Virus record (IMG/VR): IMGVR_UViG_3300047462_000262
Span: 1-28,705 of that record
Length of the DNA: 28,705 nucleotides
Source of the DNA: a virus
Reading direction: 5' to 3' (one strand)
Of this stretch, positions 2,971-22,583 are shown piece after piece. The notes below the pieces were generated by a model. The model was not told where the DNA came from. It searched no databases and worked only from the letters and a program-made list of their open reading frames with translations. A program made the translations under genes and the position numbers. How positions within the stretch are numbered: position 1 is the stretch's first letter; each line of letters opens with the position of its first letter.

Positions 2971-3041
2971 AAGTCATTGGTGTAGTGGAAGCACACCGGG
3001 CCATTAGCCTGGAAGCGTTGGTTCGAACCCGACATGACGAA
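2971..3041 (+). tRNA. Atypical or decayed tRNA-like sequence
   Basis: T-arm GTTGG-TTCGAAC-CCGAC and D-arm GTG/CAC are clear, but only five acceptor pairs form (GTCAT/ATGAC) and no CCA is encoded. The anticodon stem CCGGG/CCTGG closes CCATTAG, which lacks U33; read conventionally the anticodon is AUU (Asn). The stem can extend to six pairs with a 5-nt loop. Probably a degenerate tRNA. Confidence 0.45.
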
Positions 3042-5111: not shown

Positions 5112-5181
5112 AGTTGTATAGTATAGTGGAAACACGTCTCCTTTTTCGGAGAAGACCTGGGTTCGAATCCCAGTGCAATGG
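5112..5181 (+). tRNA. Atypical tRNA, Lys (UUU)-like anticodon, 6-nt loop
   Basis: T-arm CTGGG-TTCGAAT-CCCAG is perfect. The acceptor gives six pairs (GTTGTA/TGCAAT, two G-U) with a mismatched first position and no encoded CCA. The anticodon stem TCTCC/GGAGA closes a 6-nt loop TTTTTC, reading UUU (Lys) with one base missing 3' of the anticodon. Degenerate tRNA, or one with an altered anticodon loop. Confidence 0.5.
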
Positions 5182-11127: not shown

Positions 11128-11201
11128 GGGTTGTAAGTGTTACGGTAGCACAGAAGTCTCCAAAACTTTTAGCGGGGGTCCGACTCCCTCACAACCTGCC
11201 A
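11128..11201 (+). tRNA. tRNA-Trp (CCA), with U11-A24
   Basis: Acceptor GGGTTGT/ACAACCT (G1-U72), D-arm GTGT-TACGGTA-GCAC, anticodon arm GAAGT-CTCCAAA-ACTTT, T-arm GGGGG-TCCGACT-CCCTC, G73, encoded CCA. Counting the D-stem, position 24 is A pairing U11. In E. coli tRNA-Trp the change G24A (Hirsh suppressor) allows reading of UGA. This matters because the release-factor gene at 21885 has UGA at a Trp position. Confidence 0.88.
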
Positions 11202-18973: not shown

Positions 18974-19882
18974 TTAGACTACTGGATCCGTAAAGACCAA
19001 CTGTGGTGCAAATGGACCACGTCGAACCATAATGTTTCCACCATGAATATCAGGTCCTCTAGGATCATTATCTCCTTTGCGAGATTTTTTGATAAATCCT
19101 CGCAATACAATCAAAGCCCTCTTTAGTTCTGGATCTTTAATGTTTGTAGCTGGTCCCTTATCGCCTGGAGCAGGTCTATATGGTACTTCCATTGCAGTTC
19201 TAATAGCATCAAAAAACGCATCTTCTACAACGCTTTTAAATTTACGTGAATATTCTTCTTCGCCCTTTTGTCCAAAAAGGACCTTTTGTTTTTGTATCTT
19301 TAATCTTTCATGTTCATCACGACTACGTTTCCCTGCACCAATTTTATCACGAACCTTGTTTTCATCACGAAGGTTTTTTCTTTTTTGGTTGTATGAACTT
19401 AGCAATGCTTGGAAATTTGAAAATAGCTTATTGCCCATTTCCATCATTTCTTCTACTGACAAATCTGAAAATCGATGCAAACGTTCCATTTCAACTTTAT
19501 AAGTGTATGGTTCTTGATAACGTTGGTTAGGATCTGGTGGAGATTTAAATACTTCTACATCATACACTCTTGGAAAATACCTATTGTCGGATCCCTCCTT
19601 GTGAGAAGCCAACATTTTCATGTATTGGTAGTATCCATCTCGGCCAAGATTACTTGCTGGTCTTACAACTTTATTCGCCGTTCCTGGTTCTTCTTTTGTT
19701 GAATATGCAGTTCCAAATAAACCCGATCCAAGACGTTCAATACCATTTTCTTCGTCTGATTGCGTTTCAGCACCATATCGGTCATCTTGACCACGATTCA
19801 ACCGATCAAAATTATCTCTAGCAGATACTTCTGTATCTTTTGGCTCAAGCTTCTGTGGTGTTAATAGTTCAAATACTTTCAT
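18974..19882 (-). CDS. Protein-kinase-like protein with N-terminal tag (302 aa)
   Basis: Kinase-like fold: glycine-rich loop LGSGLFGTAYS (51-61), candidate lysine in NKVVRP (about 71), catalytic-loop-like DIHGGNIMVRR (D278, N283) and TDPVV with D299 in the DFG-aspartate position. The D-x-H-x-x-N form recalls APH/RIO-type kinases more than HRD kinases. The protein ends straight after the D, so no activation segment or C-lobe remains. Tag MKVFELLTP at the N-terminus. Start at 19882 has AAGGAT upstream. Paralogue of the next gene; the two form a minus-strand pair. Target unknown. Confidence 0.7.
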   Translation of the reverse strand: MKVFELLTPQKLEPKDTEVSARDNFDRLNRGQDDRYGAETQSDEENGIERLGSGLFGTAYSTKEEPGTANKVVRPASNLGRDGYYQYMKMLASHKEGSDNRYFPRVYDVEVFKSPPDPNQRYQEPYTYKVEMERLHRFSDLSVEEMMEMGNKLFSNFQALLSSYNQKRKNLRDENKVRDKIGAGKRSRDEHERLKIQKQKVLFGQKGEEEYSRKFKSVVEDAFFDAIRTAMEVPYRPAPGDKGPATNIKDPELKRALIVLRGFIKKSRKGDNDPRGPDIHGGNIMVRRGPFAPQLVFTDPVV

Positions 19883-19883
19883 A

Positions 19884-20657
19884 TTAATCCTTCCATTTTG
19901 GTGATGCGCCGCCACCTGAAATTGGATCTGTAATTACAACCTGTACGCCATAAGGTCCGCGACGAATCATTAAGTTGGCATGATGTAGATCCGCTGAAAA
20001 ATCAGGATTTGATTTTAGAATTTTCTGTAAAAACATCATTGCCTGTACCAACTTTGGATTCTTAATTGTTGTTATTGGTCTTGTTGACATTAATATCTCG
20101 TTAAAACAATCTGCAAAGGCAACCAATGCCACTATTTTTTGAGTTCGTTCTCTTGACTGTTCTTCTTCTGGATCACCAGTTGGTTTTGATCCTTTGATTC
20201 CAAGTTTTTTCTTCTGACCCCTAATTTCTGAATCAAACTCTGTAAAGAGATCTCTTCCGATTGTCATAATCTCATCTGTTCTTAAACTTGAAAGTGGGCG
20301 CAACTTTTCCATGTTAACATTATATGTGTACTTACCACTAGCATCTCTAAATGTATCTAATTTAAATACTTTTGGAAAGAATGGATTGTTTGCAATACGA
20401 TCATTCTGCGAAAGCATATGTAAAAATTCATAGTACGGGTCGTCTGCAAGATATTTAATTTCACTTGATTTAGCTATCTTATCGACAGCGCCTGGATCTT
20501 TTTGAGCAGCATATACATCAGCATATGCTCCACCACCAATACGTTGACGTGATTGGTCAGTCCAACCAAGTTCTCGCTGTTTGGATGCGATATTTTGCTT
20601 ATCCAATTGCTTATACTTCAGTTGGTCAGGTGTTAGAAAAAGTTCAAGTAATTTCAT
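19884..20657 (-). CDS. Protein-kinase-like protein with N-terminal tag, paralogue (257 aa)
   Basis: Same layout as its neighbour: tag MKLLELFLTPD, glycine-rich loop RIGGGAYADVY (about 40-49), lysine in VDKIAK, the segment FFPKVFKLDTF, and ADLHHANLMIRR (D223, N228) then ITDPIS (D244). A short tail follows. All nucleotide- and metal-binding positions seem kept, so activity is possible. ATG 20657 has no ribosome-binding site and lies 5 nt after a minus-strand AATAAATA box. The downstream paralogue begins right after its stop. Confidence 0.7.
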   Translation of the reverse strand: MKLLELFLTPDQLKYKQLDKQNIASKQRELGWTDQSRQRIGGGAYADVYAAQKDPGAVDKIAKSSEIKYLADDPYYEFLHMLSQNDRIANNPFFPKVFKLDTFRDASGKYTYNVNMEKLRPLSSLRTDEIMTIGRDLFTEFDSEIRGQKKKLGIKGSKPTGDPEEEQSRERTQKIVALVAFADCFNEILMSTRPITTIKNPKLVQAMMFLQKILKSNPDFSADLHHANLMIRRGPYGVQVVITDPISGGGASPKWKD

Positions 20658-21783: not shown

Positions 21784-21868
21784 GCCTGTGTGGTGGAACC
21801 GGAATACACTCGTGCCTTAAGAGCACGCGCCGAAAGGATTGCGAGTTCGAATCTCGCCACAGGTACCA
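21784..21868 (+). tRNA. tRNA-Leu (UAA)
   Basis: Acceptor GCCTGTG/CACAGGT (G1-U72), anticodon arm CGTGC-CTTAAGA-GCACG, long variable arm, T-arm GCGAG-TTCGAAT-CTCGC, A73, encoded CCA. Confidence 0.93.
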
Positions 21869-21884
21869 ATTTAAGGAGATCACA

Positions 21885-22583
21885 ATGAAGAAAGTAATTG
21901 AAATACGAGCTGCTGAAGGCGGCGATGATTCAAAGCTATTCGTTGGCGACCTCGCAAATGCGTACATTAAGTTAGCCAGCAAATTTGGCTGAAAGTGTAT
22001 CGTTAGCGACAGGAAGCCATCCGATAAAGGCTTCCACCTCATCGTCCTAACGGTTGAAGGAAACAATCTACAACAACTTAACCAAGAAGCTGGTGGACAT
22101 AGAATCCAACGTGTTAGTCCAACTGAACGTCATGGACGTGTTCACACAAGCACTGCTACGGTTGCTGTAATTGATCCTAATCAGAAAACTGACGATATCT
22201 ACCTAAAGAGAAGTGAAAGTGATTTCACAATCGAATGGTATTCAGGGTCAGGAAGTGGTGGTCAACATCGCAACAAACATATGAATAGTTGCAGATTAAC
22301 ACACATTCCAACAGGATTGGTAAGGACAGCGCAGACCCGTAATAGACAATCATCTTATAGGGATGCAATGTTATCCTTGACGCATGAACTTGATAAATTG
22401 TATAGTACGAATCGCAGGATGGTATTTGACACTATACGGAAAGACCAAATGGGATCAGGAATGAGAGGGGATAAGATCAGAACTTATCGCTTCCAAGATG
22501 ATCGTGTTGAAGATCACCAAACAAATAAGAGAGCACAAATAAAGAAAGTTCTCTCAGGAAATTTTGACTTACTGTGGAACTAA
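21885..22583 (+). CDS. Peptide chain release factor (domains 2-4) with in-frame UGA at codon 36
   Basis: Class-I release factor: EIRAAEGGDDSKLFVGDL opens domain 2, GGHRIQRVSPTERHGRVHTS (70-89) holds the codon-reading tripeptide, GSGSGGQHRNK (121-131) the catalytic GGQ, and MGSGMRGDKIRTYRFQDDRV the domain 3/2 return seen in RF1. Domain 1 is absent, since the protein starts at the EIRA motif; AAGGAG precedes the ATG. Codon 36 (21990-21992) is UGA in KFG-UGA-KCIVS, where RF1 proteins have Trp. The tripeptide SPT lies between RF1 PxT and RF2 SPF, so its stop-codon preference is uncertain. Confidence 0.85.

Follow-up and report, generated by a model that had tools for sequence, protein, structure and literature searches.

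The classic example of a protein that uses a stop codon to gauge its own activity is RF2, whose gene prfB is controlled by programmed +1 frameshifting. To our knowledge, such stop-codon self-control has been thought to be confined to RF2. Among the 8,164 genomes in which Prince, Lin and Feaga identified the prfB motif, not one had TAG in it, and they saw no programmed control of prfA (PMC12421855). Recoded phages carry RF1 or RF2 (PMC10746230; PMC13037316). In the open-licence literature, we found no account of a phage release factor gene with an internal stop.

The sequence analysed here, which we refer to as the window, covers positions 1 to 28,705 of the viral record IMGVR_UViG_3300047462_000262. 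It carries an RF1-like release factor (RF) gene interrupted by one UGA codon, and we consider it very likely that this gene is stop-gated, with a programmed UGA stop that is opened by readthrough. As in prfB, a premature stop lies early in a release factor gene and full-length synthesis needs failed termination, and sister phage genes even have an SD-like element and a CTT-stop slip site. Unlike prfB, the window clade would use in-frame readthrough with no change of frame, the protein is phage-encoded, RF1-like and without domain 1, and UAG gates occur besides UGA. Like code-switching phages, the phages with gated genes are large, rich in tRNA genes and equipped with a class I release factor of their own, but their genomes use the standard code and only the RF gene is interrupted by a stop. 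The novelty lies in prfB logic applied to another factor in other carriers and, for the window clade, through another recoding device.

An RF1-like gene with UGA at a tryptophan position

The locus and the tRNA genes considered with it comprise the following features:

11128..11201, + strand: tRNA-Trp(CCA) with U11-A24 (D stem GTGT...GCAC), a candidate UGA reader
21784..21868, + strand: tRNA-Leu(TAA), 3' end 16 bases 5' of the RF start codon, given as context only
21873..21878, + strand: ribosome-binding site AAGGAG, 6 bases 5' of the ATG (from sequence)
21885..22583, + strand: RF1-like release factor gene without domain 1, 232 codons with UGA-36 read through (from profile, structure and alignment)
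21885..21989, + strand: 35-codon leader, the predicted product of termination at the gate (from translation)
21990..21992, + strand: gate stop UGA, codon 36, at a conserved RF1 Trp; the next base is A (a weak context, not U)
22116..22124, + strand: codon-recognition tripeptide SPT, Ser78-Pro79-Thr80 (PPT in most relatives)
22257..22265, + strand: GGQ peptidyl-hydrolysis motif, Gly125-Gly126-Gln127 (from sequence)

The translation of 21885-22583 (MKK...KFG*KCIVS...LLWN*, with asterisks for stops) has exactly one internal stop, a TGA, and confirms the first-pass annotation in reading an intact RF frame on both sides of codon 36. The 35-codon leader holds neither the codon-recognition tripeptide nor the GGQ motif, both of which lie 3' of the gate. 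The same annotation had placed the UGA at an RF1 tryptophan, and alignment with solved RF1 structures agrees: in RF1 of Thermotoga maritima (1rq0/2fvo) and Streptococcus mutans (1zbt), the residue opposite the UGA is the Trp of a conserved Gly-Trp.

Residues 4-230 of the window factor match positions 115-342 of the prfA profile TIGR00019 (E=2.7e-58), and the matches to prfB (TIGR00020, E=7.4e-37) and PrfH (2e-12) are weaker. The factor lacks N-terminal domain 1 and scores 197.6 bits, below the prfA equivalog cut-off of 423.25 bits; against TIGR03072 (PrfH) it scores 47.1 bits, below the cut-off of 166.65 bits. An AlphaFold2 model (pLDDT 89) was searched using Foldseek, and its best matches were RF1 structures, headed by ribosome-bound Thermus thermophilus RF1 (TM 0.88). 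Sequence, the fold of domains 2-4 and the GGQ motif at residues 125-127 thus all place the factor with RF1, although its SPT tripeptide departs from the strict PxT form. The RF1 residues Gln185, Arg186, Thr190, His197 and Thr198 are all kept (IQRVSPTERHGRVHTS). Compared with cellular RF1 (prfA), domains 2-4, the codon-contact residues and GGQ are held in common, but the window factor starts at about RF1 residue 110, its gene has a stop gate and the family's tripeptide is PPT or SPT. PrfH is likewise a release factor without domain 1; unlike PrfH, the window factor is a far better match to RF1 and retains GG and the RF1-like motif. Among the relatives described below, L011 is missing the tripeptide loop residues altogether (HRVQRT----SNGRIHSS), and L186 combines an SPT tripeptide with a CTT-TAG gate.

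Early stops among phage-type release factor genes

We searched viral contigs twice. The first search used an alignment with its search patterns placed 5' of the gate, around EGG, and gave 80 loci, and the second used a query lying wholly 3' of the gate and gave 66. Together with huge-phage records and bacterial contigs, these searches yielded 126 distinct sequences (non-identical over the core). Two are ordinary cellular RF1/RF2 with no gate, which leaves 124 phage-type RFs, the majority of viral-contig origin. At <80% identity, the 98 loci of the first set formed 51 groups (36 in-frame, 10 frameshift and 5 with no gate, including the two cellular controls). At the DNA level no close relatives of the window were found in phages, and an exact degenerate pattern around the UGA site matched 10 stretches with no RF by tblastn.

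An early premature stop that precedes both the codon-recognition motif and GGQ is present in 119 of the 124 phage-type RFs, and in 65 of the 66 loci retrieved with the downstream-only query. The stop is in frame in 76 genes (59 with one TGA, 14 with two TGA, two with TGA plus TAG and one with TAG). It belongs to a +1-frame gate in 43 others (30 TGA, 12 TAG and one TAA), all 43 of which have CTT as the codon before the stop, and most of which have GGAGG or a similar SD-like element close 5' of it. The window gene, being in frame on both sides of its stop, has no such prfB-type +1 site. At one gate site, 'SI*LTG', UGA and UAG swap (L110, L116-118), so it is the stop and not the residue (Trp) that is conserved there. 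Five genes have no gate inside the conserved part, and four of these (L167, L188, L189 and L271) have no gate at all, which means that the gate is not indispensable.

The fifth, L009 (LR756511.1, 2902-3000), has an RF frame without a start codon and an ATG upstream at 2902. Starting from this ATG, a ribosome would have to shift +1 twice in succession, at CTT-TAA-C and at CTT-TGA-C, to enter the RF frame, which makes a double frameshift gate possible. In L285, L290, L291, L292 and L300 a CTT-TAG +1 site stands at the later of the gate positions, which in sister genes is taken by an in-frame UGA; this suggests that readthrough and frameshift devices have been exchanged at one site. The same UGA-gated RF also occurs in a cultured bacterium, Rhodovibrio sodomensis DSM 9895 (L194, 5980-6705). 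A tRNA gene with the ochre anticodon TTA (L192, 12253-12328) lies about 6 kb from a frameshift-gated RF in Novimethylophilus kurashikiensis, and a phage contig carries a predicted tmRNA gene (tag AANADSYELVA) near its RF (L126, 1524-1957).

The clade that includes the window comprises 62 sequences in 22 groups at <80% identity and is monophyletic (support 99/97). The gate column is TGA in all 62 and TGG in none, even though TGG is one transition away. Apart from the gate columns, Trp is encoded 206 times by TGG and never by TGA in RF genes from the first set. Median omega is 0.13 after the UGA and 0.09 before it (281 and 251 pairs, respectively), and no further stops occur downstream of the gate UGA in this clade.

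The codon preceding the UGA is always GGY in the window clade, and the following base is never U. In bacteria, a U at position +4 makes termination stronger (PMC5289835). Among representatives at <80% identity it was found at 0 of 44 in-frame gate sites, against 29% of TGA stops of flanking genes, a comparison whose naive p of 2.7e-7 is overstated because the sites are phylogenetically non-independent. Synonymous differences in the nine codons after the UGA were 0.28 of expectation among 35 core members of the clade, and none of 20,000 permutations was as low. This dip points to a putative cis-acting nucleotide signal. The window is a diverged member of the clade and the conserved post-UGA sequence of the core is absent from it. 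A search of the core clade for RNA structure after the UGA gave one 4-bp stem with no covariation, and a stimulatory RNA hairpin is weakly supported.

A second synonymous dip lies further along the RF genes of L121-L184, at about codons +121 to +138 after the UGA. There, 30 of the 35 core representatives have a consensus-like sigma-70 promoter (TTGAC, 17-19 bases, TATAAT) inside the RF coding sequence, to which we attribute the dip in preference to long-range pairing. This internal promoter may drive the downstream tRNA genes.

Proposed operation of the gate and candidate factors that close it

Translation would initiate at 21885 and, after 35 codons, the ribosome would reach the UGA in a leaky context. 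The usual outcome would be termination with release of the short leader. A fraction of ribosomes would decode the UGA, most likely by tRNA-Trp, and go on to finish a 232-residue RF1-like factor with the ancestral RF1 tryptophan restored. Tryptophan is probably the residue inserted at UGA-36, since the position is that of the ancestral RF1 Trp. The level of full-length protein would be set by UGA termination against near-cognate decoding, rising when termination is weak and falling when it is strong. As the full protein would arise only through failed early termination, its amount would track how poorly the stop is terminated. The homeostatic logic would be that of prfB, achieved by readthrough in the window clade and, convergently, by +1 frameshifting at CTT-stop sites among sister clades. 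We infer the readthrough event, the inserted Trp and the feedback. The intact frame, the standard code, the position of the UGA at the RF1 Trp and its conservation together support the first-pass proposal that RF synthesis depends on UGA readthrough in the manner of the prfB frameshift. The analogy is the stronger because sister genes have, at almost the same position, +1 sites of the prfB CTT-stop type.

The terminator that competes at the gate could be only host RF2, or the phage factor as well, and this distinction separates two versions of the gate explanation that share its probability about evenly. One version, with somewhat less than an even chance of being correct, is direct autoregulation, in which the phage factor itself recognises UGA (UAG in relatives) and so lowers its own synthesis as RF2 does. 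Most gates are UGA, but UAG is used in 12 of the 43 frameshift-type genes and in three in-frame genes, and an RF that reads all three stops would make the gate codons interchangeable. There is one RF-domain gene per phage genome. In addition, the SPT tripeptide of the window is RF2-like in its first residue, Ser, and RF1-like in its third, Thr, a hybrid of PxT and SPF. Under the rule reportedly set out in 2000 by Ito, Uno and Nakamura, whose paper PMC1586002 cites, Ser in the first position with Thr in the third would allow A or G at both positions, and the window tripeptide could, judging from these residues, widen stop recognition. Against this, 119 of the 124 relatives have the RF1-type PPT, and the window keeps RF1 contact residues, among which mutation of Gln185, Arg186, Thr190 or Thr198 impairs binding by RF1 (PMC3974865). 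The conservation of these contacts predicts UAA/UAG specificity, and the affinity of RF1 for UGA is 650-fold lower than for UAA (PMC3974865). Were the phage factor RF1-specific, it would not terminate at its own UGA and direct autoregulation would fail.

The other version, also plausible without being favoured, is that the factor reads UAA and UAG only and that the gate reports host RF2 activity, more phage RF being made when RF2 is short or diverted. It agrees with the conserved RF1 determinants and with the predominance of UGA at the gates of RF1-like factors, whereas genes for cellular RF1 lack a gate of this kind (PMC12421855). It leaves the UAG gates unexplained, however, as an RF1-like factor would read UAG itself.

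A broader reading, which we offer tentatively, is that large phages carry distinct RFs without domain 1 that read UGA, UAG and UAA, are regulated by exchangeable stop-codon gates, and would sense and top up the overall capacity for termination in the infected cell. The exchangeable set would consist of in-frame UGA or UAG readthrough and of single and possibly double +1 frameshifts.

If the gate explanation is correct, a second, phage-borne RF family follows the same logic as prfB with independent hardware, with near-universal premature stops that are UAG as well as UGA and with two kinds of recoding device at almost the same position in its genes. It would open to testing the termination needs of phages, single factors that read all three stops and evolution between recoding devices. 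Gene finders split or shorten gated RF genes, and phage release factors have probably been miscounted.

Genetic code, tRNA-Trp and remaining alternatives

A further alternative is that UGA is reassigned in these phages (code 4 or late-gene recoding) and that the RF merely follows the phage code. This has a precedent, in that some code-4 phages encode RF1 with a suppressor tRNA-Trp (PMC10746230). In the window, however, UGA serves as a normal stop: TGA terminates many + strand ORFs, Trp is encoded by TGG, and TGA overlaps with starts at several junctions (among them 10259/10262, 18085/18088 and 23264/23267). Four relatives of 635-735 kb, for each of which 380-400 kb was sampled, end 9-17% of their genes with TGA; TGG exceeds TGA about 8-12-fold even in ORFs drawn through TGA, and in the longest such ORFs TGA is found mainly at the ends. 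On contigs G001 and G002, which bear window-clade genes, and G006, which bears a deep-branch gene, TGA ends 16-32% of genes of at least 150 aa, and no internal TGA was found in 64 large ORFs of G006. No tRNA with a UCA anticodon was found in the window or in the sampled DNA of relatives. Counts of code-4 ORFs with internal TGA in the flanks were excluded as a null as they include spurious frames, and contig G004, with many spurious open frames, was left out of the code analysis. These genomes use the standard code, as the first-pass annotation had stated for the window. With TGA stops, no dense in-frame TGA, TGG at every other Trp codon of the RF genes and no UCA suppressor tRNA, genome-wide recoding of UGA to Trp is contradicted, and reassignment of any kind is very improbable. 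ARAGORN called a tRNA with a CTA anticodon (as Pyl) on the contig of L147 (G001), where few genes end in TAG.

The UGA had also been linked to a Hirsh-type tRNA-Trp. The U11-A24 pair is indeed present in the window tRNA-Trp, and also in L121, but its role as the key to the gate is not supported, since genomes with the same kind of gate have C11-G24 (L134, W05 and one of two tRNA-Trp genes in L172). We therefore rejected the Hirsh-type tRNA as the shared cause of the gate. The phage tRNA-Trp may help readthrough, but is not a common determinant. A24/C9 variants are common in bacterial tRNA-Trp, occurring in 2,414 of 3,438 surveyed genes with a 4-bp stem (PMC13092985).

Insertion of selenocysteine or another special residue at the UGA is very improbable. 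A hairpin can form from the UGA in some core sequences (L121 and L123), but it shows no covariation and is absent from the window, the position is Trp in cellular RF1, and UAG substitutes at a related gate. A SECIS search gave no Rfam match and no covariation, Rfam cover of bacterial SECIS being limited. A pseudogene or sequencing error, which a lone nonsense codon on a metagenomic contig might otherwise suggest, is ruled out by the same UGA in 62 sequences, the strong purifying selection downstream and the lack of other lesions.

Two tRNA calls elsewhere in the window are odd (5112-5181 and 2971-3041), one having a two-base anticodon and one being a tRNA-Asn with an ATT anticodon. At 18974-20657 (- strand), two ORFs each match a separate part of a T7-type protein kinase PHROG (15752).
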